Assembly: GCF_900187405.1 (NCBI RefSeq)
Contig: NZ_LT896716.1
Coordinates: forward strand, 1,240,001 to 1,304,000
Direction: 5' to 3'
Length of the DNA stretch: 64,000 nt
From: Geobacter sp. DSM 9736
GTDB taxonomy: Bacteria > Desulfobacterota > Desulfuromonadia > Geobacterales > Geobacteraceae
Part shown: positions 1,285 through 12,464 of the stretch, piece by piece
Position numbering within the stretch: the first letter of the stretch is position 1
How the letters are laid out: each line of letters starts with the position of its first letter
Notes under the pieces: generated by a model
Database searches by the model: none
What the model was told of the DNA's origin: nothing
Seen by the model: only the letters and a program-made list of their open reading frames with translations
Program-made: the position numbers and the translations under genes

Positions 1285-2013
1285 CTACCCCTCCATCATC
1301 CCCCTAAGCTCTACCGCGTTCCGCGGCGCATACCCCCCAATATCGTTATTGAAATAGATGTAGACGTCCCTCCCCTTTTCCAGATACCCCCGAATCCGTC
1401 CTGCGTCGACCTCCAGTTCCTTGGCGGAGTAGTTTCCGGTGTAGTGCATGTCGTGACCGTGTCGCCTGATGTAGACGAAATCTGCAGTTTGGGGTGGATC
1501 GACAAGGAAGGGTGGGTTGTCGGCGGCGCAGATGTTCACGCCGTAGCGGCGGCAGATGTCGGTTACGCTGGGAATAAGCCAGCTCGGGTGGCGGAATTCA
1601 AAGGTGTGGCGCACGGGATAGGGAGCGATGAGCTCGAGGAACGACGCGAAACGGTCGAGGTCGAGCTGGAAGCCCGGGGAAAGCTGCCAGAGTACCACCT
1701 TCAGCTTGTCACCGAGATTGCGGGCGGCATCGAAGTAGCGGTGTACCGCTTCCTCGGCGTCGGCCAGACGCTTGATGTGAGTGATGAACCTGCTCCCCTT
1801 TATGGCGAAGGCAAACCCTGACGGGGTATCATTTCTCCATTTCGAGAACGTTTCGGGGGAAGGGAGACGGTAGAAGGTTACATTCAGCTCCACCGTGGAG
1901 AAGACGGTGCAGTAGTGCTCGAACCACCTTCTCTGGGGGAGCTTTTCAGGGTAGAAATTCCCCCGCCAGTGCTTGTAATTAAAGCCGCTGCACCCGATTT
2001 CGATAGATGCCAT
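1285..2013 (-). CDS. DUF72 (YecE-like) family protein
   Basis: A 242-residue protein with the opening IEIGCSGFNYKHWRGNFYP and the WFEHYCTVFSTVELN segment characteristic of DUF72/YecE, a TIM-barrel family of unknown function. The segment with EFRHPSW matches the family's conserved C-terminal half. The ATG is preceded by GAGGG at suitable distance. It is the last gene after sppA on the same strand (about 75 bp gap). No function can be assigned beyond the family. Confidence 0.8.
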   Translation of the reverse strand: MASIEIGCSGFNYKHWRGNFYPEKLPQRRWFEHYCTVFSTVELNVTFYRLPSPETFSKWRNDTPSGFAFAIKGSRFITHIKRLADAEEAVHRYFDAARNLGDKLKVVLWQLSPGFQLDLDRFASFLELIAPYPVRHTFEFRHPSWLIPSVTDICRRYGVNICAADNPPFLVDPPQTADFVYIRRHGHDMHYTGNYSAKELEVDAGRIRGYLEKGRDVYIYFNNDIGGYAPRNAVELRGMMEG

Positions 2014-2089
2014 CGAACCCTCGCAACAACCTGTTCTTCCATCAACAGATTATCTACCACGTTACCACAACCTCCCGAAGGCGCAACAT

Positions 2090-2977
2090 TCACCATACTC
2101 CTGCAGCAGGTTCATATATGGCGCTGAGTCCCGTCTCCTGCCGGAGCGTCTGAGTAACTCTGACGGCAGCCTCCTCAACTAGCAGATCGAGAAGGAGTTT
2201 CTTCTTTTTCGGCGGGCAGATCACCTGCGGTTCTCCCTGGATTCCTCCGAGTCTGCCGGCCTCCTCGATGGCATCCTGAAGAGTTCCCAGTCGGTCAACG
2301 AGCTTCAGATCCTTTGCCTGCTCCCCTGACAGCACACGGCCATCGGCTATTTTTCTTACCTCATCTACCGGTATTTTTCGTCCATCAGCGACAGCCCGGA
2401 CGAATTGGCTGTGGGCACTGTCGATTACGCTCTGCAATACCCCCTTCTCCGCTTCAGTCAAAGGACGGAGAGGAGAACCGGAGTCCTTGAACTCTCCTGT
2501 TTTCAAAGTAAAAGCTTTCAGCCCTATCTTATCCATCAGCCCTTGCACATTCGTAAGCTTCATCAGAACGCCTATACTGCCGGTGATGGTGCCTGGATTG
2601 GCAAATATGAGACTGGCGGGGGCGGAGATGTAGTATCCACCGGAGGCGGCGAGACTACCCATCGAGACCACCACCTTCTTACGGCCCGCCAGCTTCTTCA
2701 CCTCGTCGTGAATCTCCTGTGATGGTGCCACTATTCCACCAGGTGAATCGACACGTAAAACTACAGCCTTCACACGACCATCCTTTCCAAGATCGCGCAA
2801 TTGCTTCACAACTTCCTGAGAGTCCAGGATCATCCCCTTCACCTCAACGAGACCTACCCCATCCCCCCTGAGGGTTCCAGCTCTACTAAAAAGAAGAATT
2901 ACTGATAATACGGCGGTTAAAGCGCAGGCCAAAAAACCGCCCGCAACGACCCAAACCCATACCGGCGTTTTTTTCAC
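2090..2977 (-). CDS. sppA: Signal peptide peptidase SppA, short type (S49 peptidase)
   Basis: This 295-residue membrane-anchored serine protease would cut leftover signal peptides in the cytoplasmic membrane. Residues about 7-30 form an N-terminal membrane segment. The S49 core follows: VLRVDSPGG, the nucleophile region VSMGSLAASGGYY with the catalytic Ser, and TGEFKDSGSPLRPLTEAEK with the expected general-base Lys. The length fits the single-domain, half-size SppA that assembles as an oligomer, not the 67-kDa E. coli form. It lies between a Cys-tailed small protein gene upstream and the YecE-like gene downstream on the same strand. Confidence 0.88.
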   Translation of the reverse strand: MKKTPVWVWVVAGGFLACALTAVLSVILLFSRAGTLRGDGVGLVEVKGMILDSQEVVKQLRDLGKDGRVKAVVLRVDSPGGIVAPSQEIHDEVKKLAGRKKVVVSMGSLAASGGYYISAPASLIFANPGTITGSIGVLMKLTNVQGLMDKIGLKAFTLKTGEFKDSGSPLRPLTEAEKGVLQSVIDSAHSQFVRAVADGRKIPVDEVRKIADGRVLSGEQAKDLKLVDRLGTLQDAIEEAGRLGGIQGEPQVICPPKKKKLLLDLLVEEAAVRVTQTLRQETGLSAIYEPAAGVW

Positions 2978-3062
2978 GCTAGCTTCTCCTGGTTCGAAAG
3001 GAATACGCTCCGTTTATCCGGGCGACATATTAACTGCAAAAATCTGAATAGAGACAAGACGA

Positions 3063-3455
3063 TCAGCAGCCGCAGCCACAATTGTGGCAGACCTTGCGGT
3101 TGTGATCTTCGGGGGGGATTGTTTCAGGAGCAAAAGCAACGCGGTTCACAGCTCTCCTGATATCTTCCTGGAGGTCGAGATTTGCACTCTTACCTATGAC
3201 ATGCCCGACACACAGACTGCTGAACCCATCTGCAGGCGAGGATATCCGGACCGAGTTAAGCAGGTCAGCATAGCTGTTGATTGCGATGGTAATGGCGTCG
3301 TTTTCCGCTCTTTCGAGTTGGACGCCGTACCGCAACAGATCTCCCGCCAGGTCTTGCAAAAACGATTCGAACGACGGACCGGCGATATCCACCTGCCAAT
3401 CGTTTCTCACGTGTTCCTGACGAAAGAACGTCAGCACCATTTTCTTACCGTTCAT
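3063..3455 (-). CDS. Small protein with a Cys-rich C-terminal tail, unknown function
   Basis: I do not recognise this 130-residue protein. It is hydrophilic, with no signal peptide or membrane segment, and ends in CHNCGCGC, five cysteines plus a histidine in the last nine residues, which looks like a metal-binding tail. It starts about 16 bp after a single-domain response regulator and closes the operon that contains the decahaem cytochrome. A role as a metal-binding or redox accessory is inference from the tail and location only. Confidence 0.6.
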   Translation of the reverse strand: MNGKKMVLTFFRQEHVRNDWQVDIAGPSFESFLQDLAGDLLRYGVQLERAENDAITIAINSYADLLNSVRISSPADGFSSLCVGHVIGKSANLDLQEDIRRAVNRVAFAPETIPPEDHNRKVCHNCGCGC

Positions 3456-3471
3456 CCCTGCGCTTCCTTTC

Positions 3472-3858
3472 TTACCCTACCTGAGCCTTTTTCTGGAGCG
3501 AACTGAAGATCATGTCCAGTACTGCCTGCTGCTTCGATTCGAATTTATTGAGAACCGCGAGACAGGTTCCAAGGGGAAAATGCTCATGGAGGTAATCCGC
3601 ATCCCTGCCTGAAAGAATAATGATCCTGTTCTTGTCGATGCCGATTTTCGAAGCGAACTGGAATATCTTCATCCCGTCGATCATCGGCATTTCAAGATCT
3701 ATCACAAGAAGGTCGATCCCCTTCTTACGTATGATCTTCAACGCCTTGAGCGGTTCGTTGCAGACTTCGACCTGCAGAAGCGGATAATACAATTTGATGT
3801 TGTTGCTCAATGCGGTCGAATAAGTTTTATCATCATCTACGATCAGGATCTTTCCCAT
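3472..3858 (-). CDS. Single-domain response regulator (receiver only)
   Basis: The 128 residues form one receiver domain: acidic pocket DDD at 8-10, phospho-acceptor Asp at 54 (VIDLEMP), Ser 83 at the switch position (IILSG) and Lys 105. The usual Lys-Pro pair is Lys-Phe here. There is no output domain, so it would act through protein contacts or as a phosphate sink. It follows the substrate-binding protein by 29 bp in the cytochrome/barrel operon; no histidine kinase is adjacent, so its partner is unknown. Confidence 0.85.
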   Translation of the reverse strand: MGKILIVDDDKTYSTALSNNIKLYYPLLQVEVCNEPLKALKIIRKKGIDLLVIDLEMPMIDGMKIFQFASKIGIDKNRIIILSGRDADYLHEHFPLGTCLAVLNKFESKQQAVLDMIFSSLQKKAQVG

Positions 3859-3887
3859 TTACACCTCAGACCTGCTGCTGGTCTCCA

Positions 3888-4850
3888 TTACTTCAACACC
3901 CTCGTCGCCTGGCCAAGCACCTGAAAAGGAACGTGAAGATCGAGTGACTTCGCGACACGCATATTGATGACGAGGTCCACCTTCTTGGGGGAGATAATCG
4001 GCATCTGAAGAGGCTTTTTCCCACCTATTATCCTGGCCGCGTACTCCCCGGCTAGCTGGCCCTGCTCCGCCGGACTTACTTCCAAAGAAATAAGAGCTCC
4101 TTTTTCGCAGGCATCCGGCATTTGCGACACGACAGGTATACGGTGCTCATTGGCTTTCTGTACTATCTTCTCAAATCCACGGCACCCCACGGCGCATTCG
4201 GAGACATAGATGGAGTTTACCTGGGAGATAACGGAATTCAATGCTCCATCAAGCGCTGCCACGGAGGAAACGTTTAACTCGGTGACAAGAAAACCCTGCT
4301 GAGCCGCAATTCGCTTGATCTCCTTCAGCTGCACCATGGACCCGATCTCCCTGGAATTGTATACTACCGCGATGTTCTTGATTGGCTTTATCCCAAGGAA
4401 ATTGGAGATGAGTGTCGTCATGGGCACCTTCGAGCTTACCCCCGTCAGATTATGGCCGGCGACCGTCAGACTTCGCGTGATTCCCGTTTCCACGGGGCCA
4501 TAGACATCCACGAACACTACCGGCACATCCACTGATTCGCGAACAGCCGCCAGTGTGACCGGAGCGCCGTACGTCACTATTATGTCGGCACCTAGAGCAT
4601 TCAGTTTCCTGATGCTGTTCGCCCAGGAAATCGGATCCGGATTCGGCGTCTGAAGAACGATATCAAGATTATCCCGATCGAACCCCCTGGCCGCCAGACT
4701 TTTGACGAGCGCCTTATGAGCCTCCCGGTAGCGGGGTTGATCGCTGCTGATCACCGCAGCCAGGAATTTACCTGCGGCAGTGGCGGATACTGCCGGTGAT
4801 AGCAGCAGCATAAGCAGCAAAATGTATTTAATGCAGCGTAGCGACATCAA
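3888..4850 (-). CDS. Periplasmic ABC-type substrate-binding protein (PF04392 type)
   Basis: A 320-residue exported protein: a signal peptide covers about residues 1-25 (hydrophobic LLLMLLLSPAVSATAAG), followed by a two-lobe binding protein of the ABC_sub_bind family, with typical segments VISSDQPRYREA, IIVTYGAPVTLAAV and VVFVDVYGPVETG. Members usually bind aromatic amino acids or other small ligands, but the ligand here is unknown. It lies 13 bp after the beta-barrel gene. There is no matching permease nearby, so it may serve as a sensor rather than a transporter part; this is inference. Confidence 0.8.
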   Translation of the reverse strand: MMSLRCIKYILLLMLLLSPAVSATAAGKFLAAVISSDQPRYREAHKALVKSLAARGFDRDNLDIVLQTPNPDPISWANSIRKLNALGADIIVTYGAPVTLAAVRESVDVPVVFVDVYGPVETGITRSLTVAGHNLTGVSSKVPMTTLISNFLGIKPIKNIAVVYNSREIGSMVQLKEIKRIAAQQGFLVTELNVSSVAALDGALNSVISQVNSIYVSECAVGCRGFEKIVQKANEHRIPVVSQMPDACEKGALISLEVSPAEQGQLAGEYAARIIGGKKPLQMPIISPKKVDLVINMRVAKSLDLHVPFQVLGQATRVLK

Positions 4851-4863
4851 TGCTCCGGAAGTA

Positions 4864-6954
4864 TTACCATGCGGCGTTCAGCAAGAGCATGTAGCTGTGA
4901 ATCGTGCCATTGAAAATAGAAGCACTGGCCTCATCGTCATAGTCGCGGAATGAATAATCGAAGGCACATGAGACATTTTGCGTAATCCGATACTCCGTTC
5001 TGGCAGAAACCGTACTCTCAACTGTCTTCGTACGTGAGATATCACGGATTGAGGCAGTATCCCCGATAACAGCGCCACCCTGGGAGACTGCAAGAAAAGC
5101 CGGATCAAACTCGGACAGAGAACGTACCTGCTGGAGGAGAACCGAAAGATCGAGATTCTCGTTTAACCGGTAGGTGGAGTTTAGTGCGTAGACGTGCGCT
5201 TGGGAAGTGAAGGCTGCTGCATTGGACACTGCATCGGCAAAGGATGTGAAAAGGACCGATTGGTCGACTGAAGTACGGAGGAATCCGTAACTCGCGGTGA
5301 CAGTGAAATCGGTAAGGGGAGTTGCCCACAAGCTTGCTGTAAGCCTGTTGTCCCTCTTGTCCCTTGCTAGCGGCGACCCGTAATTGCCGAAAGTAATATC
5401 GGGAAAAGTAAGTATAACCGAACGGGCTATGACGTCGTTTGAATCACGTGCCGCCACGTACCCGGCAGTTGCTCCCCAGCGATTGGAGCTGTTGTAAGTT
5501 GCCAGGAGCTGCCCCTCGTGACGTTCAGAGAATGAAGTGCCGTACGAGGGGGTATCGGCGGAGCTGTATTCGTACTGTGCCTTCAGGCGCAGCCCCTTGT
5601 AGGCTCTGCTTATGACGGAAAATCTTCCCCTATGGGTGGTTGTCGTCTCAGGCAAGTCTCTCCAGTGCATCAGCGTATCCCGATCGCCAAGGTCTGAACG
5701 GCGGAGGAAGCTCCCCCGGTATTCGCCAACGAAGGTCAGTGAATTGGCCGGCCTGACGGACAAGGTGGCTGTGACAATGTTGTTCACGCTGTCAAGTGTC
5801 GGACGCACGGAGATGGCGTCGGTGAAACGGCTCCCGATGGTTGCCGGAGTGCTGTGGTCAACCTCCTGCAGCCGGTATTTTATAGCCAGCGAAAACTCCT
5901 TGCAGGGGGTGTAGACAAAATCGGTGGCAGCGTTATGGAGGGTGGTTGAAGTACCGTCAGCTCCAGAAATATCCGACAATCTGGAGAGATTTTCCCTTTT
6001 ACCGTAAGAATAGGATGCGGCTCCGACGAGACCGCCAGCCAGGGAGGTGTGGAATTTTACGGTGTGCGAGATGAGCCTGCTGTCAGGGTCCTCGTTATGC
6101 TGCTGAAGTCCTGCAACTCTCAAGGGGTTACCGCCGACAAAGCTGGTTACCGGTATCGGCGCATCATCTGCGAACTGCCTCACCTGAAAGGAGTAGATGA
6201 GGTCGACGGGGCCAAGATGAGTGTCGAAACCGATGGTGCCCTCATGGGTTTTCCGGTCGACAGGGCGACTGACTGCGTAGATACGGTTCAGGGGTCCCTC
6301 GAACGCTTGATCGGCAAAGATCTGCTGGCGGTTCCCTTCCCGGAAAAGCCGCCAGTATCCGAGGTTCAGGTGGAACGGGAAGTCGTGGATCTTGTATCGG
6401 AAGGTTGCGAGGTCCTGTTCGGTGCGAATTCCGTAGCGGTAAGTCGGGTCGGGAACAGCCACGTAGGATGCGACACTGGGGCTGTCAGCGCGCCCTGTAA
6501 AAAAATCGGGCGTAAACAGCTCCTCCCGGTCCAGGTTGTGGAACATCGATTCGGTGCGGATGTGAAACCTGTAGTCTCCCCGGTAGTCGAAAAGCAGATC
6601 ACCGTAATAATCATGATCGTTGAGAAAACTGCCGTCGAGGGAGTATTTTAGATTCGCTCCGAGCCTGTTGTAATAGGCTCCGAAGACGGGGCTCGAGTGG
6701 AGGTAGTCGAACTCCGCCCCCCTTCCGCCATACCCGTCGATCTGGAGAAAACGGTAGCCCAAATGCCCGCCGGTAACGATACGAGGCTCCAGGGGAGCAG
6801 TGTCGGCATTACCCCCGTCCGCACCATCCTCGGAATCAGCGATGACATAAGGCTGATCGTCCGCCTCCGCCACCAATGTCTCAGCTCGAGCGGAAACGGC
6901 GGCTGCCACGAGAACGACAGGGATGGACAGCTTCCAGAGCAGTTGTCTCAACAC
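4864..6954 (-). CDS. Large outer-membrane beta-barrel, probable porin of a porin-cytochrome complex
   Basis: The 696-residue protein has a signal peptide (about residues 1-24, ending SARA) and then alternating hydrophobic/polar strands rich in aromatic residues to the end. It closes with a C-terminal aromatic strand (MLLLNAAW), as expected for an outer-membrane barrel. The size fits MtrB/PioB-like barrels that sheath a decahaem cytochrome, and the gene starts 19 bp after a decahaem cytochrome gene. The sequence is divergent, so MtrB homology is an inference from size, fold and context. A conduit role would pass electrons across the outer membrane. Confidence 0.72.
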   Translation of the reverse strand: MLRQLLWKLSIPVVLVAAAVSARAETLVAEADDQPYVIADSEDGADGGNADTAPLEPRIVTGGHLGYRFLQIDGYGGRGAEFDYLHSSPVFGAYYNRLGANLKYSLDGSFLNDHDYYGDLLFDYRGDYRFHIRTESMFHNLDREELFTPDFFTGRADSPSVASYVAVPDPTYRYGIRTEQDLATFRYKIHDFPFHLNLGYWRLFREGNRQQIFADQAFEGPLNRIYAVSRPVDRKTHEGTIGFDTHLGPVDLIYSFQVRQFADDAPIPVTSFVGGNPLRVAGLQQHNEDPDSRLISHTVKFHTSLAGGLVGAASYSYGKRENLSRLSDISGADGTSTTLHNAATDFVYTPCKEFSLAIKYRLQEVDHSTPATIGSRFTDAISVRPTLDSVNNIVTATLSVRPANSLTFVGEYRGSFLRRSDLGDRDTLMHWRDLPETTTTHRGRFSVISRAYKGLRLKAQYEYSSADTPSYGTSFSERHEGQLLATYNSSNRWGATAGYVAARDSNDVIARSVILTFPDITFGNYGSPLARDKRDNRLTASLWATPLTDFTVTASYGFLRTSVDQSVLFTSFADAVSNAAAFTSQAHVYALNSTYRLNENLDLSVLLQQVRSLSEFDPAFLAVSQGGAVIGDTASIRDISRTKTVESTVSARTEYRITQNVSCAFDYSFRDYDDEASASIFNGTIHSYMLLLNAAW

Positions 6955-6973
6955 GCGAATACTCCTTGCCGGC

Positions 6974-7996
6974 CTACTGACGAAGCGTTCCGGGACCGGT
7001 GAGGGCCGGGGCCGGTATGTCGGTGCCGTGGACCTGGGAATGGCAATCAGTGCAGCGGTTGGTAAAGAGCTTCTTCAACTCGGTAGCTCCTGTCCTGTAC
7101 TCCCCAATCGAGTTCTGGGGATAATTGATCATGTGCCCCGCATGGCACTGGAGGCAGAGAAAGGGCATCGAGGCGCTGAGCAGGTTGTTATTGACGGAAC
7201 CATGCGGCGTATGGCAGTTGGCGCAGTTTTCGGTGACGTCGCCATGCTCGAATACAAACGGCCCCTGCTTTTCCATGTGGCACCTGGTGCAGGTATCCTT
7301 CGGAGTTATCCCCCGCAGGAGATGCTCCTGAGTGGACCCGTGCACCTCGTGGCAGTCGACGCAGGCAATCTTCTTCTCAAGGAGCGCATGGTGAGAGAAG
7401 AGCTGGTTTTCGGCCTTCACTTCCGGATGGCAGCCGTAGCACATCTCTGCCATCTCCCGATGGCTCACCTTCTGCTGCGGCCCTTGATGAAGCTTATGGC
7501 AATCGAAGCAGCTCACGTCGTTGAGAGCATGGGCGCTGGCATTCCAATGAGCGAGGGCGGGAATGGAAGCGGCTGAATGACACTTAAGGCAGATCAGCGA
7601 CTGTGCCTGGGGAGGAAGGTTCATGATATCCAGGAAGGTGGTGGTGTCGCACTTTTTGTTGAGGCGGTCGTTCTCTTCCGGATTGTCCGGCAGATTCTCT
7701 ATTGCCAGGCTTCCCGGACCGTGACACGACTCGCAATTCACCAGGGGAAGTCGTGTTTCCGGTTTTATCTGCTCCCCATGTACGCTACGCCTGAAATCGT
7801 CGGTGATTCCGTCATGCTTGTGGCATTTGGCCACACAGTTGTCGGTTCCGACATATTCGGCATCTAGGCGACCAACGATCATCCTCTCGTATTCACGTAC
7901 CGGAAAGAGCGGTTTACTTTCCTTGAGGTTGGCACAGGCGGCGAGAAAAAAGGAAACCGAGGACAGCAGGAAGACCCACCCGAAGATACGTCGCAA
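6974..7996 (-). CDS. Decahaem c-type cytochrome lipoprotein (DmsE/MtrA-like)
   Basis: Starting at TTG (7996), which has AGGAGG eight bases upstream, the protein is 340 residues. A longer frame to 8047 lacks a binding site. The N-terminus is a lipoprotein signal with lipobox LAAC. Nine standard haem motifs follow (CESCH, CLKCH, CFDCH, CYGCH, CVDCH, CTRCH, CANCH, CLQCH, CTDCH), preceded by an unusual CVAKCH with three residues between the cysteines, giving ten possible haems. This spacing and size fit the DmsE/MtrA family of periplasmic electron carriers that insert in an outer-membrane barrel; the barrel gene is immediately downstream. The lipid anchor is a departure from soluble MtrA. Confidence 0.85.
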   Translation of the reverse strand: MRRIFGWVFLLSSVSFFLAACANLKESKPLFPVREYERMIVGRLDAEYVGTDNCVAKCHKHDGITDDFRRSVHGEQIKPETRLPLVNCESCHGPGSLAIENLPDNPEENDRLNKKCDTTTFLDIMNLPPQAQSLICLKCHSAASIPALAHWNASAHALNDVSCFDCHKLHQGPQQKVSHREMAEMCYGCHPEVKAENQLFSHHALLEKKIACVDCHEVHGSTQEHLLRGITPKDTCTRCHMEKQGPFVFEHGDVTENCANCHTPHGSVNNNLLSASMPFLCLQCHAGHMINYPQNSIGEYRTGATELKKLFTNRCTDCHSQVHGTDIPAPALTGPGTLRQ

Positions 7997-8058
7997 ACGC
8001 TTCTCCTCCTTTGACAGCACACACAGCCGTAAGATGCAGCGGCACATAACAAGGCGAA

Positions 8059-8940
8059 CTATTCTTTCGCAATACCCTTCGTCGTAGTATAGATGAATCC
8101 GGTAACGATAGGATTACTGCTCCCCTTGATCTCCCGAGGGGTTCCGACCTCGACTACCCTACCGTCATGCATCATGGCGAGCCGGTCAGATATGTAGAGC
8201 GCGAAATTGAGATCGTGAGTAACGATTACAGTGGTGTTTTTGGTAGTTTCTTTCAATTTGATAATCGTGTTGGCCAACTCGTCGGTGGTTACAGGATCGA
8301 GTTCGGCTGTCGGCTCGTCATAAAGAATAAGGTCGGGATTCATAGCAAGGGATCTGGCTATTGCCACCCTTTTCTTCATTCCTCCCGACAGTTCTGAGGT
8401 ACGCAGTGTTTCGGTTCCCTCCAGCCCTACCAGGGCCAATTTCTCGCGTATGATCTCCCTGATTCTGTATTCCTTGCATATCCGCTTTTCCCTAAGCCAT
8501 AACCCAACGTTTTCACCGACGGTCAGAGAATTGAAAAGGGCAGAAGATTGAAAGACCATACTGTACCGGTAGTCAGGCACGTTCGTTGTGCGATTCTCGC
8601 TGAAAATCGGCAACTCATCGATGTATATCTCTCCTGAATCCGGATTCTCCAGTTTCACCACATGCTTCAGAAGGACGCTTTTCCCCGTTCCGGATGGACC
8701 AATGATTGAAAATGTCTCTCCAGGTCGGATCTCCAGATCGACATCCTTCAGGACATGCTTTTCCCCATAATACTTGTTCAGCTTCTCTATCCTTATGGAG
8801 ACCCCACGGGTATTGGAAAGATTGATGGCGCATTCAGGTTCTTCATCATGAAAGATGGACCCGGACAAACCATGCTTCAATTTGTCGAAAAAAATGCCAA
8901 CATTGGATTTGTGATGGTCGTTGAGGAGCTTAGGAAACAC
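8059..8940 (-). CDS. ABC transporter ATPase, MlaF/Ttg2A-like
   Basis: A 293-residue ATPase with Walker A GPSGTGKS, signature LSGGMKKR and Walker B LILYDEPTAELDP, in the arrangement of the Mla lipid-transport ATPases. It carries about 45 extra N-terminal residues before the ATPase fold begins (VSIRIEKLN). The GTG start at 8940 has AAGGG eight bases upstream; a shorter version is possible. No MlaE-type permease or MCE protein lies next to it, which is unusual. It is 62 bp upstream of the decahaem cytochrome on the same strand and may be the first gene of that operon. Confidence 0.8.
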   Translation of the reverse strand: MFPKLLNDHHKSNVGIFFDKLKHGLSGSIFHDEEPECAINLSNTRGVSIRIEKLNKYYGEKHVLKDVDLEIRPGETFSIIGPSGTGKSVLLKHVVKLENPDSGEIYIDELPIFSENRTTNVPDYRYSMVFQSSALFNSLTVGENVGLWLREKRICKEYRIREIIREKLALVGLEGTETLRTSELSGGMKKRVAIARSLAMNPDLILYDEPTAELDPVTTDELANTIIKLKETTKNTTVIVTHDLNFALYISDRLAMMHDGRVVEVGTPREIKGSSNPIVTGFIYTTTKGIAKE

Positions 8941-9026
8941 GTTAATTTCCCTTTGACGGTAGTGAAATCACCGAATTCGGCACTTCATGCAGGAACAGGC
9001 ACAGCGCCCGCTCCTTGCTGGATGCT

Positions 9027-9470
9027 TCAGAAGATATACCTGCGCGCGTTGGTAAAGTAGCTCTTGTGCCGATAGATGTACTGGGTAAGCAAAAGTATGG
9101 CCAATGCTGCAGCGACATTATTAACCACCAGAGCTTCCTGCTCTATCCGCCCCCCAAGCACTTTTTCAAGTTCAGCAGGGGCGATGAGAGTGAGGTTGAC
9201 GATGGTATTGCAGATCTCAAAAAGATTGTAGAAGAGGAGAAGATACCATGTCAGCATCTGCCGTTTCATGAGGCCAAGAAACAGGTAAAGGCAAACGAGG
9301 CTATCGGCAAATACTAGAACCTTACCTGGGGTGTCGAGATAGATCTTCCCCATAAAGGGAAACGGGTTCCCGAAGGTGGAGGCCGAAACAAGAAAGAAAA
9401 AAAGGTACAGGCCGGTGATCAGCGTCAACCCGAGAGGTCTACGTATTTCCTGCTCATCAGTCTCTGTCAT
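9027..9470 (-). CDS. Small integral membrane protein, four predicted helices
   Basis: The 147-residue protein has hydrophobic stretches near residues 13-32, 48-66, 74-96 and 112-131, consistent with four membrane helices. I do not recognise the family. The ATG is preceded by GAGG. It follows the CoA-binding gene by 28 bp and precedes the Mla-like ATPase by 86 bp on the same strand. Confidence 0.65.
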   Translation of the reverse strand: MTETDEQEIRRPLGLTLITGLYLFFFLVSASTFGNPFPFMGKIYLDTPGKVLVFADSLVCLYLFLGLMKRQMLTWYLLLFYNLFEICNTIVNLTLIAPAELEKVLGGRIEQEALVVNNVAAALAILLLTQYIYRHKSYFTNARRYIF

Positions 9471-9498
9471 TGAAACCTCACACGCATCGGACTGAGAG

Positions 9499-9912
9499 TT
9501 AGTGGGTTACCAGGAACCGGTGCTCCTTCAGGATGCACCTGTCCATAATCACCGTGAGACCAGCCTCTTCTGCTCGTCTTGCAGCATCTTCATTCACTAC
9601 ACCTTCCTGCATCCAGACTACTCTTGCACCTATTGCTATAGCGTCTTCCACTATGGAAGGGACTGCCTCTGAACGTCGGAAGATATCGACTATATCGACC
9701 TGATCGGGGATATCACGAAGGCTGGCGTAGCATTTTTCTCCGAGAATCTCCTGCTCCGCCGGGTTAACAGGAATAATGCGAAAGCCGGCGCGCTGTAGAT
9801 ACTGTGCGACTCCGTGGCTCGGTCGGAAGTGATCCGATGAGAGCCCCACGACGGCAATTGTTTTGCACATGTTAAATATCTGTTTCAGGTCCTTCCCTAT
9901 TTGTGCTTGCAT
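9499..9912 (-). CDS. CoA-binding domain protein (YccU family)
   Basis: A 137-residue protein with a Rossmann CoA-binding fold: IAVVGLSSDHFRPSHGVAQY, the YLQRAGFRIIPVNP segment and the C-terminal GLTVIMDRCILKEH typical of YccU-like proteins. The ATG at 9912 follows GGGAGGAG closely; the longer open frame upstream overlaps a 31-residue gene and is not used. The physiological role of this family is not settled. Confidence 0.82.
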   Translation of the reverse strand: MQAQIGKDLKQIFNMCKTIAVVGLSSDHFRPSHGVAQYLQRAGFRIIPVNPAEQEILGEKCYASLRDIPDQVDIVDIFRRSEAVPSIVEDAIAIGARVVWMQEGVVNEDAARRAEEAGLTVIMDRCILKEHRFLVTH

Positions 9913-9923
9913 GGCTCCTCCCT

Positions 9924-10019
9924 TCACTTTCTTCTCATGTCGCTGACCCAGACACAGATGAAGATGACTACCATGACTCCTGCGATGAATATCCAGTCTG
10001 CTGCACTGAAACCGAACAT
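9924..10019 (-). CDS. 31-residue single-helix membrane protein
   Basis: A short reading frame sits exactly between the TPR gene (7 bp gap or so) and the CoA-binding gene (11 bp gap). It encodes an N-terminal MFGFSAADW, a hydrophobic helix IFIAGVMVVIFICVWV and a positively charged end MRRK, a classic one-pass small membrane protein. AGGGG precedes the ATG. Its tight fit in the operon argues that it is real; function is unknown. Confidence 0.65.
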   Translation of the reverse strand: MFGFSAADWIFIAGVMVVIFICVWVSDMRRK

Positions 10020-10027
10020 CGTAACCC

Positions 10028-10990
10028 CTATGCGTTAAGATCTTCGAGAGCCCGTCTCGCATCGGCGTGATCGGGATCAAGGCTGAGCGCCTCCTTCAAA
10101 TAATCCTCGGCGTACTTGGGCATCCCCATGTTCCGGTAGCAAAGCCCGAGAACGTACCATATCTCCGGAATCGGAAACTCAGCTGTAAAGACCGAATCCT
10201 CCAGCACATCCAGGAGAAGAGCCGAAGCCTCCTCATCTTCCCCCTGCTGATGCAGGCCGAAAGCAGTCGCAACTACTTCCAGGTAATCAACAGCCGGAAC
10301 GTGAGAAAGCAGCCCCTGCTCGATCCTTTGGAGGCGCTTGTCCAGTTTTTCCGCAACTGACTCATCAAGACCAGTCTCTATCACCCTGCGCCAGAGCTGC
10401 TTCGCCTGATCGTATTTCCCGAGGATGTAGGAAATCTCTCCAAGATTATAGAGAGCATCTCTGCTATCCGGGTCCAGTTGTACAGCCGAAGCAATGTATT
10501 TCTCGGCACGATACAGGGAGACTGTCGTGAACTGGAGACCCGAAAGGCGCATGCCTTTGTCAAAGTAGGTCATGCCGATTTCGAGGGGAAAGCGTGAATT
10601 CTCAGGTTCCAGGAGCGCGAAGATCTTAAGGTAATTTATCTTGCGATCAAGGTACGGCACCTCCACATCCTTCTTGTCGAGCATCACGATGTGGCTGGCA
10701 AGCTCAGAGAGATAGTGCGGGTATCCATCCCTCAGAAGTTCTGCATATCGTGACGCATTCAGACAATCCGGATTGCTGCGCAGTGCCTGGTAAATTCCAC
10801 GACCGACTGCATCGTAGGAAGGCTGCTCATCCCCGAGTTTCTGAAAATCATCCTCCAGAAGAGGTACGGGTAGCTCATCATAGAAAAAACGGAACTTTCC
10901 GTCTCTCCCTTCCAGCAGTGCGCCGGCAGGGGGCGTATAGTAACGGATGCCTGTTATCGGCGTCGGTGCTTGTGTTTGAGGTTTCTTGAT
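10028..10990 (-). CDS. TPR-repeat protein with a non-standard ATC start
   Basis: The reading frame from the stop at 10028 stays open to an in-frame stop at 11003-11005, and contains no ATG, GTG or TTG before 10687. A strong ribosome binding site (GAGAGGAGAG) lies six bases before an ATC codon at 10990, giving a 320-residue protein beginning (M)IKKPQTQAPTPITGIRYY. Starting at the internal GTG 10687 would drop 101 well-formed residues and has no binding site. The C-terminal two-thirds contain tetratricopeptide repeats (for example YRAEKYIASAVQLDPDSRDALYNLG and a last repeat near the end). ATC starts are very rare and known mainly from genes with feedback on initiation. The protein partner is unknown. 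Confidence 0.75.
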   Translation of the reverse strand: MKKPQTQAPTPITGIRYYTPPAGALLEGRDGKFRFFYDELPVPLLEDDFQKLGDEQPSYDAVGRGIYQALRSNPDCLNASRYAELLRDGYPHYLSELASHIVMLDKKDVEVPYLDRKINYLKIFALLEPENSRFPLEIGMTYFDKGMRLSGLQFTTVSLYRAEKYIASAVQLDPDSRDALYNLGEISYILGKYDQAKQLWRRVIETGLDESVAEKLDKRLQRIEQGLLSHVPAVDYLEVVATAFGLHQQGEDEEASALLLDVLEDSVFTAEFPIPEIWYVLGLCYRNMGMPKYAEDYLKEALSLDPDHADARRALEDLNA

Positions 10991-11166
10991 GACTCTCTCC
11001 TCTCACTGGATGGTACTCCGTTTGATACATTGTATGCGAGCCACCGTCAACCTCTATTTCCCCATCGCCTTTTTTTTAGGCAAACAGGCTTTGAAAACGT
11101 GCAGGCGATTCTATCCAAACATCCAGAAACTATGCGTATCCTGCTGATATCAAGAGTTTACCATAT

Positions 11167-11182
11167 TGGCAAACAGCTTGCT
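11167..11182 (+). promoter_or_regulatory. Sigma-54 promoter of the ammonium transporter gene
   Basis: TGGCAAACAGCTTGCT carries GG and GC elements separated by ten bases, the -24/-12 pattern read by RpoN. It lies about 65 bp before the amt start codon. An NtrC-type activator would be expected; no clear activator site was found by eye. Confidence 0.75.
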
Positions 11183-11246
11183 TTGCATTGCAGGCAGTGC
11201 GACGGTCACCATCGCCGGTGCCGCATCTTGCCAACGGGGGTAAAAA

Positions 11247-12464
11247 ATGGAAGCTTTGTCGATGGAGACGCTGCGAAGCAGCACGGATGTGCTCTTTCTT
11301 ATGCTCGGGGCTGTAATGGTCTTCGCAATGCACGCGGGGTTCGCCTTTCTCGAAGTAGGAACGGTGCGCCAGAAAAATCAGGTGAACGCACTTGTAAAGA
11401 TACTTACCGATTGGTCCGTGTCGACCATCGTCTACTTCATCGTCGGCTTCCCCCTCGCCTACGGGGTCTCTTTCCTTGTACCTTCCGGCACGCTCATAGC
11501 CTCGGCACAAGGCTACGACCTCGTTCGCTTTTTCTTTCTTCTATGCTTTGCAGCCTGCATTCCGGCCATAATTTCGGGAGGTATCGCGGAGCGAGCCAAA
11601 TTCTGGCCACAAGTCATCGCCGGTGCCATCTTCGCCGGGTTCACCTATCCGCTGTTCGAATCGCTGATCTGGGGTCAGAATGCATCCCTGTTGCAGGGGC
11701 TATTCAAGAAGATCGGCGGCGCCGAGTTTCACGATTATGCCGGGTCAGTCGTGGTTCATTCTATCGGGGGATGGCTTGCTCTTCCTGCTGTACTGATCCT
11801 CGGCCCGCGCATGGGGCGCTACCTGCGTGGTAAATCGCATCCGATTCCGGTCAGCAATATCCCATTTCTTGCACTAGGCTCGTGGATTCTCGCTGTAGGC
11901 TGGTTCGGCTTCAATGTCATGAGCGCCGGTCACATCGAGAAGATTTCCGGACTGGTTGCCGTGAACTCCCTTCTTGCCATGATTGGAGGTGTGCTCTTCG
12001 CTCTTGTCGCCGGCAAGAACGATCCCGGCTTTATACACAATGGCGCCCTTGCCGGACTTATCGCCGTCTGCGCCGGAAGCGATATCATGCACCCCCTTGC
12101 GGCTTTTTTCACTGGGGGCATAGCTTCACTGATCTTTGTCTACGGGTTCCACATCGAACAGGAAAAGCTGAAAATAGATGATGTCCTCGGGGTCTGGCCG
12201 CTACACGGAGTTATAGGATCGTGGGGTGGGATCGCTGCCGGCATATTCGGTCTCGAAACGTTCGGGGGCTTGGGTGGTGTAAGCTTCGTGAGCCAGCTGC
12301 TGGGAAGCCTTTGCGCAGTCCTTTATGCGCTCGCAAATGGCTTTGTCATATATGGTCTTCTTTCCAGAACGGTCGGAATACGACTGGACGAGGAACAGGA
12401 ATTCTCCGGAGCGGATTTGAGCGTGCACCACATTGGGGCATATCCTGAGAACAACGTCCGGTAA
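11247..12464 (+). CDS. amt: Ammonium transporter (Amt/MEP/Rh family)
   Basis: A 405-residue membrane protein with about eleven helices. Conserved Amt segments are visible: the N-terminal FAMHAGFAFLEVGTVRQKN, the region around FHDYAGSVVVHSIGGWLALP containing the first pore histidine, and the GVIGSWGGIAAGIFG region with the preceding HG of the second pore histidine. The gene has a sigma-54 promoter, which fits induction under nitrogen limitation. No glnK gene lies beside it, unlike most bacterial amt loci. The cytoplasmic tail after the last helix is short. It converges on the threonine aldolase gene with 16 bp between them. Confidence 0.92.
   Translation: MEALSMETLRSSTDVLFLMLGAVMVFAMHAGFAFLEVGTVRQKNQVNALVKILTDWSVSTIVYFIVGFPLAYGVSFLVPSGTLIASAQGYDLVRFFFLLCFAACIPAIISGGIAERAKFWPQVIAGAIFAGFTYPLFESLIWGQNASLLQGLFKKIGGAEFHDYAGSVVVHSIGGWLALPAVLILGPRMGRYLRGKSHPIPVSNIPFLALGSWILAVGWFGFNVMSAGHIEKISGLVAVNSLLAMIGGVLFALVAGKNDPGFIHNGALAGLIAVCAGSDIMHPLAAFFTGGIASLIFVYGFHIEQEKLKIDDVLGVWPLHGVIGSWGGIAAGIFGLETFGGLGGVSFVSQLLGSLCAVLYALANGFVIYGLLSRTVGIRLDEEQEFSGADLSVHHIGAYPENNVR

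Follow-up and report, generated by a model that had tools for sequence, protein, structure and literature searches.

Within the window, a 64,000-nt stretch of DNA from Geobacter sp. DSM 9736 to which all positions given here refer, six open reading frames lie on the minus strand between 3063 and 8940 and encode an ABC ATPase, a multihaem cytochrome, an outer-membrane barrel, a substrate-binding protein (SBP), a single-domain receiver and a protein ending in CHNCGCGC (Table 1). From the ATPase downward, the intergenic gaps measure 62, 19, 13, 29 and 16 bp, the first being counted to the TTG start of the cytochrome at 7996 and shrinking to 11 bp if translation begins at ATG 8047. The tight same-strand spacing of 13-62 bp described in the first-pass annotation thus holds, and all six genes are where that annotation placed them. 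The block was nevertheless drawn too short: it continues upstream with genes for a TPR protein, a CoA-binding protein and a 147-aa membrane protein, and downstream with the gene for the peptidase SppA, and these neighbours are mostly retained in relatives. The CoA-binding gene was noted in type II locus L224 and in locus L268 as well, and SppA is probably not a conduit component. A promoter and terminator scan of window positions 2000-11300 gave 10 against 6.9 and 5 against 8.4, which is near chance; weak terminator-like sites were seen at 8070-8054, between the ATPase and cytochrome genes, and at 4932-4919, close to the end of the barrel gene.

Table 1. Genes of the block and its conserved surroundings (positions within the 64,000-nt window; last column, Geobacterales loci retaining the neighbour).
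Feature	Position	Strand	Basis or remark	Loci
TPR protein, upstream neighbour	10028..10687	-	start uncertain	38/40
CoA-binding-domain protein, neighbour	9499..9912	-	PF13380	
147-aa membrane protein, neighbour	9027..9470	-		36/40
MlaF-type ABC ATPase	8059..8940	-	PF00005; NCBIfam MlaF below cut-off	
Decahaem MtrA/DmsE-family cytochrome	6974..7996	-	TTG start behind AGGAGG; ATG 8047 possible	
MtrB-like outer-membrane beta-barrel, 696 aa	4864..6954	-	AlphaFold2 model, Foldseek	
SBP, apparent signal peptide	3888..4850	-	PF04392/TrpX-related; ATG 4847 possible	
Single-domain receiver	3472..3858	-	PF00072; Asp and Lys kept	
130-aa protein, C-terminal CHNCGCGC	3063..3455	-		
SppA peptidase, next gene	2090..2977	-	TIGR00706	26/40

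Conservation of the block was assessed at several depths. In 40 Geobacterales loci, drawn from 63 barrel-bearing genomes of that order, the SBP was present in all 40 and the receiver and the ATPase in 37 each. The association of these genes is far beyond chance, and the locus counts are not independent because most loci belong to related genomes. A wider gene-order survey covered 87 loci and ignored matches below 60 bits; its profiles were built from type I members, except that those for chemoreceptors (MCPs), MlaE, MlaD and WPLF came from types II and III, and distant genes may be missed. The survey of relatives took the best 80 of 116. For the co-occurrence counts, presence sets and coordinates were transferred by hand from the search tables, and genomes with a completeness of 90% or more and contamination of no more than 5% (n = 103) are referred to below as good genomes. 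What emerges is a gene order that is old, yet one whose genes are modules with separate fates.

The cytochrome scores 275.1 bits against TIGR03508 (DmsE family; cut-off 192.2) and matches MtrA (6r2q_A) at E 2.1e-48. Its description as a lipid-anchored decahaem protein stands as regards family and lipobox (LAAC), the latter being recognised in 58/83 and 36/43 loci with repeated sequences counted in; only nine of the haem motifs are CXXCH, however, the first being CX3CH (CVAKCH). After 28 repeated sequences had been removed, CX3CH was present in 96 of 98 distinct members and the full 9+1 pattern in 95, the other three being broken or cut. For the adjacent barrel, neither a Pfam match nor a match to TIGR03509 (MtrB/PioB) was obtained, three of its relatives reached only 19-22 bits against the TIGR03509 cut-off of 240, and a sequence search against solved structures returned no matches. 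Its AlphaFold2 model (pLDDT 80.8) is closest by Foldseek to MtrB (6r2q_B; E 2.0e-20, TM 0.67/0.72), the next match falling to E 3.6e-9 and TM 0.40/0.39, and as modelled the barrel folds as MtrB. The annotation as a cytochrome/barrel pair is thereby borne out; the pair is of MtrAB type, and cytochrome and barrel would form an MtrAB-like electron conduit across the outer membrane. No surface cytochrome of MtrC/OmcB type is encoded among the genes at window positions 2090-10687.

The proposed tie between the conduit pair and a solute-binding protein is supported. Where the gene directly after the barrel can be seen (82 loci), it is the SBP gene in 75, which come from both Desulfuromonadia and Nitrospirota. 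Within Geobacterales, 62 of the 63 genomes with a barrel also have the SBP, and in the remaining one a contig end truncates the barrel. Cytochrome, barrel and SBP therefore constitute a core module, although the seven loci lacking an SBP after the barrel mean that it is not strictly needed. PF04392 covers nearly the full length of the SBP, which can be aligned to three solved proteins (3lft, which we take to be a tryptophan binder, 6hni and 3lkv). Assignment as a tryptophan-binding protein was rejected, since the score against the TrpX equivalog NF041285 is 133.7 of 390 bits.

In Geobacterales, the core is followed by the receiver. It retains the Asp and Lys residues expected for phosphorylation, as do 37 relatives inspected by eye, and a solved-structure search with it gave one weak match, PmrA (1.8e-7). 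The receiver is not bound to the conduit: besides its presence in nearly all loci read, the gene occurs in 128 of 141 Geobacterales genomes and in 97 of the 103 good ones, 49 of these 97 being without a barrel. As it is near-universal in the order and half the time unaccompanied by a conduit, its place may be inherited order. Outside the window's clade, an MCP adjoins the core in 21 of 41 loci, and over the 87 loci of the wider survey the MCP gene follows the SBP in 15, follows the barrel in 4 and precedes the cytochrome in 2. Both MCPsignal and HAMP domains were found by Pfam in all 7 scanned of these 21 proteins, and the MCPs of Nitrospirota and Desulfuromonadia differ across most of the sensor half. 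At a further locus (L145), the SBP gene is followed by those for a PhnD-type SBP and a histidine kinase. The window's block itself has no gene for a cognate kinase or receptor, but the suspected link to signalling is strengthened by relatives in which the place of the receiver is taken by an MCP or, in one case, by a histidine kinase.

The ATPase probably has a different affiliation. It reaches 160.6 of the 441 bits required by the MlaF equivalog, and a comparison with solved structures, at a cut-off set too strict, returned no matches. The same genome carries an MlaE-MlaD operon without an ATPase at about 1,959,000-1,962,400 of its contig C1 (contig coordinates), some 710 kb from the window ATPase, and all 30 loci read, that of the window genome among them, have no ATPase between MlaE and MlaD. 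Among the 103 good genomes, ATPase and MlaE are both present in 60, discordant in 0 and 1, and both absent in 42; in the sole discordant genome, G002, a fragment of the ATPase lies next to the receiver, where the contig ends. Inside family f4 alone the corresponding figures are 11, 0, 0 and 42, and with incomplete genomes counted 12 of 141 are discordant. MlaE was called at E <1e-70, a cut-off chosen after a gap between 3.5e-79 and 3.0e-57 had been seen, whereas the other gene-presence cut-offs were set together with their searches. Expressed as phi over the good genomes, the ATPase co-occurs with MlaE at 0.98 and with the SBP at 0.55. The order MlaE-MlaF-MlaD in nine deeper loci points the same way. 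The window ATPase is thus probably the ATPase subunit of the remote MlaE-MlaD system and, because of this co-occurrence with an operon lacking its own ATPase, probably no part of the conduit; conduits without it are found in genomes G119 and G129. Its candidacy as a partner of the conduit or the SBP was accordingly rejected, and of the partners that the first-pass annotation expected to stay with the cytochrome and barrel in relatives, the SBP does so, the receiver gives a mixed picture and the ATPase does not.

The last gene of the block encodes a protein without a Pfam match whose CHNCGCGC tail is unchanged in all 25 relatives found. A sequence search gave a best E of 0.48, and Foldseek with the predicted structure (pLDDT 86.7) gave none of 798 matches at E <=0.001. 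In VIA-align, the best matches of the model were mitoribosomal and thioredoxin-like chains (best Z 5.9, rmsd 3.0, 82 aligned, a range that the tool calls common), which weakly suggests a thioredoxin-like fold.

The reading favoured here, to which we assign a probability of roughly 0.55, is that the locus encodes an MtrAB-like conduit that has its own ligand sensor in the periplasm, feeding signalling, and is set in an MlaF-receiver backbone whose ATPase serves a split Mla transporter. Gene anatomy, the order of the modules, co-occurrence and the genes of the split transporter are observed; electron transfer, ligand binding and the tie to signalling are inferred. The lipid-anchored decahaem cytochrome would sit in the MtrB-like barrel and allow electrons to cross the outer membrane, while the SBP would most likely bind a small, perhaps aromatic, molecule and pass its state to a signalling output. 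In other lineages that output would be a chemoreceptor or histidine kinase, and in Geobacterales the single-domain receiver, fed by an unlinked kinase. The cell could then tune its taxis or expression according to whether an acceptor or shuttle served by the conduit is present, and these bacteria may sense what their probable outer-membrane wire is in contact with. In this genome the conduit module lies inside a second conserved block, comprising the TPR protein, the membrane protein, MlaF, the receiver and the Cys-tailed protein. The ATPase of this block would energize a lipid transporter of MCE/Mla type, the permease and MCE protein of which are encoded in a separate operon.

Alternatively, the SBP might be no sensor but serve the structure or assembly of the conduit, as a periplasmic plug, chaperone or docking protein, with MCP and receiver as bystanders of operon order. 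In Geobacterales, a barrel without an SBP occurs only at a contig end, as for an obligate subunit; the receiver is mostly independent of the conduit, and the stretch fetched for nine type II loci showed neither an MCP nor a receiver of these families behind the SBP. Against this, the SBP occurs without a barrel in 12 Geobacterales genomes, with the receiver immediately behind it in 10; elsewhere the SBP is followed by either of two kinds of MCP or, at one locus, by a histidine kinase, and four loci have an MCP and no SBP. We hold such a structural or assembly role with low confidence. It is far more difficult to view the six genes as a single unit, an ABC importer with a porin, formed by ATPase, SBP and barrel, that takes up a solute for reduction by the cytochrome. 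Although ATPase and SBP share the block, and an ABC-system solute-binding protein is among the closest solved relatives of the SBP, the block has no permease, the ATPase tracks MlaE and not the SBP, and TrpX-type systems, as far as is known, use a different ATPase; such an importer is highly improbable.

A link through lipids has more in its favour and is still unlikely. Mla might supply or clear phospholipid around the conduit barrel or the lipid-anchored cytochrome, which would keep ATPase and conduit together: genes in the order MlaE-MlaF-MlaD stand before the cytochrome-barrel-SBP trio in nine deeper loci, and in the window's clade the ATPase remains beside the trio even though MlaE-MlaD lies elsewhere. 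However, good genomes without a barrel still have the ATPase (14) and MlaE (15), three good barrel genomes lack both, and no Mla genes were found in the stretch fetched around MCP-type loci.

A bolder extension of the favoured sensor reading, which we regard as doubtful, is that the conduit is itself the receptor, contact of this haem wire with an external electron acceptor or shuttle being read by the SBP and relayed to the chemoreceptor in Nitrospirota and part of Desulfuromonadia or to the receiver pathway in Geobacterales. It would then act as a sensory organ for electron acceptors outside the cell, instead of or besides a respiratory route. The matter bears on the way in which metal reducers locate and assess solid electron acceptors, and a conserved cytochrome-barrel-SBP module, repeatedly beside chemoreceptors, a kinase or a receiver, provides concrete genes for that question. 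The ATPase is also very probably the subunit that a lipid transporter seemed to lack, which corrects a likely misreading of the block; without it, the transporter would look incomplete in these genomes.

Several known systems resemble parts of the locus. The ATPase scores on MlaF and the genome encodes MlaE and MlaD, as for the Mla/MCE phospholipid transporter, but here the transporter genes are split between two loci. The TrpX-type SBPs (3lft, 6hni, 3lkv) share PF04392 and can be aligned, whereas the window SBP falls far below the equivalog cut-off and has no permease beside it. With the OmcK-GSU2204 pair of Geobacter sulfurreducens, the locus shares the cytochrome-barrel order and a homologous cytochrome, and a lipobox is likewise seen in 7 of 9 OmcK-type loci. 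Membership of that family was rejected: the scores lie below both cut-offs (NF041028, 256.5 of 325 bits; NF041027, 90.9 of 350), OmcK-type cytochromes have ten CXXCH motifs and no CX3CH as against the 9+1 of the window type, and they form a separate, strongly supported clade in a cytochrome tree of 65 hand-chosen rows, whose midpoint root and warned long branch leave the outgroup order uncertain. None of nine OmcK-type loci yielded an SBP.

The Pcc clusters OmbB-OmaB-OmcB are also conduits of a barrel and multihaem cytochromes, with different haem numbers and gene sets (PMC4245776). In the portion of that paper available to us, cytochromes, regulators, a chitinase and hypotheticals are named as associated genes, an SBP is not, and some known conduits are likewise described as lacking a surface cytochrome. 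Clustered mtrAB genes in Desulfuromonadia, with expression in Desulfuromonas acetexigens, have been reported (Shaw et al. 2025, PMC12133095), and the Desulfobacterota Mtr lineage of that study may include the window's clade; its main text, apart from the supplements, does not contain the terms 'substrate-binding', 'response regulator', 'ABC transporter' or 'chemotaxis'. In the accessible part of PMC7784907, a Shewanella MCP is named in an expression table only, and the open-access literature, supplements aside, yielded no description of cytochrome-barrel-SBP or cytochrome-barrel-MCP operons.

Also among the closest parallels is MtrAB of Shewanella (6r2q), with which DmsEF, MtoAB and PioAB are grouped as further conduits. 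As there, an MtrA-type gene of the decahaem family TIGR03508 directly precedes a gene for an MtrB-fold barrel. To our knowledge, MtrA has no lipobox. The window's version departs from MtrAB in its barrel, unmatched by TIGR03509, in the absence of a surface cytochrome from the block, in a cytochrome bearing a lipobox and CX3CH as its first haem motif, and in the SBP gene that comes next in 75 of 82 loci.

All six open reading frames of the single-orientation block proposed in the first-pass annotation (window 3063-8940, minus strand) are present, and its intergenic gaps of 13-62 bp are upheld: from the ATPase downward they measure 62, 19, 13, 29 and 16 bp when a TTG (7996) preceded by AGGAGG is taken as the cytochrome start. 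In Pfam/NCBIfam domain searches, the products were recognized as an ABC ATPase, a DmsE/MtrA-family cytochrome (275 bits against TIGR03508, cut-off 192), a PF04392 substrate-binding protein (SBP) and a PF00072 receiver, while the barrel and the Cys-tailed protein had no match in the Pfam search. The cytochrome carries one CX3CH motif, the first, plus nine CXXCH motifs. The C-terminal CHNCGCGC of the Cys-tailed protein is identical in 25 of the 25 relatives found, and in its model (pLDDT 86.7) strands and helices follow one another in a thioredoxin-like order, all structural matches being weak.

Features of the block and its surroundings (window coordinates unless a locus is named)
Feature	Position	Strand	Remark
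SppA	2090-2977	minus	
Cys-tailed protein	3063-3455	minus	
Receiver	3472-3858	minus	
SBP	3888-4850	minus	
Barrel	4864-6954	minus	
Cytochrome	6974-7996	minus	
ATPase	8059-8940	minus	
TM147	9027-9470	minus	147-aa membrane protein
CoA-binding protein	9499-9912	minus	
Small ORF	~10020-9925	minus	31-residue peptide, probably single-span membrane; between TPR and CoA-binding genes
TPR protein	10028-10687	minus	
WPLF protein	L236:6876-8372	minus	498 aa; apparent signal peptide; rich in WPLY/LYPFF-like repeats; no Pfam match

Across Geobacterales, the barrel was found in 63 of 141 genomes. At the 40 loci of the order where gene order was read, the genes present keep the sequence TPR-(CoA-binding)-TM147-ATPase-cytochrome-barrel-SBP-receiver-Cys-tailed-SppA, with the SBP at all 40, TPR at 38, ATPase and receiver at 37 each, TM147 at 36, SppA at 26 and the Cys-tailed gene at 25. 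In barrel-less genomes, of which twenty regions were read, the remaining genes keep their order. Where barrel and SBP are both absent, the receiver comes directly after the ATPase in 21/21 loci (20 genomes; gaps 13-331 bp); three barrel-less genomes have ATPase-SBP-receiver, and SBP-receiver occurs in 10 of the 12 genomes with the SBP and no barrel. One genome (G044) carries the window's block minus exactly cytochrome, barrel and SBP, two others (G005, G013) are alike with no CoA-binding gene detected, and four (G121, G124, G140, G079) retain the receiver with ATPase and SBP gone. Of 103 good genomes (at least 90% complete, at most 5% contaminated), 97 carry the receiver, and 49 of these 97 have no barrel. 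Since barrel-less genomes keep the order and the receiver is mostly independent of the barrel, the block consists of a backbone (TPR, TM147, putative MlaF, receiver and Cys-tailed protein) plus a conduit module that is optional, and the SBP bridges both. Another genome lacking the conduit (G058) has the ATPase-receiver pair twice.

The ATPase follows a different partner. The window genome (3.96 Mb, one contig) encodes MlaE and MlaD twice each; the set at locus L237 includes an ATPase, and the other (L236) reads WPLF-MlaE-MlaD without one, its MlaE and MlaD genes lying ~60 bp apart. In all 30 loci of the latter kind that were read, these two genes have no ATPase between them. Among the 103 good genomes, ATPase and this MlaE occur together in 60, ATPase alone in 0, MlaE alone in 1 and neither in 42 (phi 0.98), compared with 46, 14, 3 and 40 for ATPase and barrel (phi 0.69). 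In the sole exception (G002), a piece of the ATPase adjoins the receiver at the edge of a contig. The corresponding counts within one family (f4) are 11, 0, 0 and 42 for ATPase and MlaE, and all 141 genomes, incomplete ones included, give 8 + 4 discordant cases (phi 0.83). Owing to this co-occurrence and the ATPase-less MlaE-MlaD loci, the MlaF that this set lacks is very probably the window ATPase, although the latter scores below the MlaF equivalog cut-off. The WPLF protein precedes MlaE in 30/30 ATPase-less loci (L238-L267), is also the first gene of the type II operons described below, and may be an outer-membrane or bridging component of this lipid transporter.

The conduit is MtrAB-like on two bases, sequence for the cytochrome and fold for the barrel. 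The cytochrome profile matches MtrA of the Mtr complex (6r2q_A, E 2.1e-48; this chain is labelled otherwise in the structure entry list). For the barrel, a sequence search against solved structures gave no match, and the top Foldseek match of its AlphaFold2 model (pLDDT 80.8) is chain B of the same complex (6r2q_B, E 2.0e-20, TM 0.67/0.72), followed by a second-best at E 3.6e-9 (TM 0.40/0.39). A lipobox ahead of the first haem is common within the cytochrome clade, though not recognized in every member. Anatomy, gene order and co-occurrence are what the analysis shows; the conduit would carry electrons. Several individual loci deserve mention. The cytochrome frame of L046 is interrupted, giving two pieces in the gene-order search, perhaps through sequencing error or gene decay. 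Barrel, SBP and receiver lie near both ends of one contig (L067, G116:C1:4060000-4078000, and G116:C1:3100-6319), with the barrel fragmented at one of these ends and the L067 cytochrome frame broken; this duplication is probably an assembly overlap at the ends of a circular chromosome. A Nitrospirae MAG, MnB_6 (L126, contig Mn-Nitrospirae-1), perhaps from a manganese-oxidizing enrichment, judged by title, has the cytochrome-barrel pair on a contig that stops inside the barrel.

Beyond the order, 87 loci were ordered (the best 80 of 116 relatives from a cytochrome-alignment scan, plus seven more). The gene after the barrel, where visible (82 loci), is the SBP in 75, a chemoreceptor (MCP) in 4 and something else in 3. 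Type I (46 loci) shows the window arrangement, with losses. Type II (nine loci) reads TPR-WPLF-MlaE-MlaF-MlaD-cytochrome-barrel-SBP, its profiles favor the ATPase-less L236 set over the other (MlaE 385 vs 176, MlaD 370 vs 134), and downstream of its SBP neither an MCP nor a receiver of these families turned up. Type III reads cytochrome-barrel-SBP-MCP and comprises 15 loci, of which ten are Desulfuromonadia-like and five belong to Nitrospirota; an MCP lies just upstream of the core in two further Nitrospirota loci. By these counts, the core has an adjoining MCP in 21 of 41 non-type I loci, and five of the 41 are cut by a contig end near barrel or SBP; all seven scanned of the 21 MCPs contain MCPsignal and HAMP by Pfam. 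A PhnD-type SBP follows the SBP at L136 and L145, with a histidine kinase at the latter.

In the MCP comparison INDEPENDENCE, the Desulfuromonadia receptors align over their full length at 50-97% identity, as do Nitrospirota L140 and L141 with L148 (73-74%). Alignments between the two sets (32-38% identity) mostly start at or near HAMP, or in two pairs up to ~90 residues ahead of it; L135 and L148 match only from residue 153 onward. The sensor halves therefore differ. The difference suggests that sensor parts were recruited separately or exchanged, and no other observation hints as strongly at a sensory role for the module. The earlier proposal that electron export could be tuned to a ligand is strengthened as regards the SBP and its signalling partners (MCP or, at L145, kinase) and loses the ATPase, which goes with MlaE. 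In such a scheme, the SBP would bind a ligand and its state would pass to an MCP, kinase or receiver. SBP and receiver should occupy different compartments, so an unlinked membrane kinase or receptor would have to join them in Geobacterales. Solved-structure relatives of the SBP include TrpX-type proteins, a name taken from a family-profile search, which suggests that its ligand may be aromatic; an attractive guess would be a redox-active aromatic shuttle.

No description of the cytochrome-barrel-SBP trio, or of its link to MCPs, was found in the open-access literature searched. Shaw et al. 2025 (PMC12133095) describe mtrAB in Desulfuromonadia, expressed in D. acetexigens with electrodes or iron oxides, in a main text where the terms substrate-binding, response regulator and ABC transporter are absent; these mtrAB may belong to the window clade or to OmcK. 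The OmcK profile (NF041028) scores above cut-off in 60 of 277 genomes of the class, and the window's SBP family was not found at nine OmcK-type loci examined. A third, distant decahaem cytochrome (L226, L227 and L228, in G075, G050 and G051) has a lipobox and ten CXXCH, with neither the barrel nor the SBP family of the window in the stretch fetched. The module is a real, old and conserved variant of MtrAB-type conduits. Its cytochrome clade carries CX3CH in 96 of 98 distinct members, the other two having broken frames, whereas CX3CH is lacking from the twelve cytochromes examined of OmcK or other type, which have ten CXXCH; in the midpoint-rooted tree of the cytochromes, type I and OmcK each form a single, strongly supported clade, separate from one another, which does not hold for the MCP-type groups.
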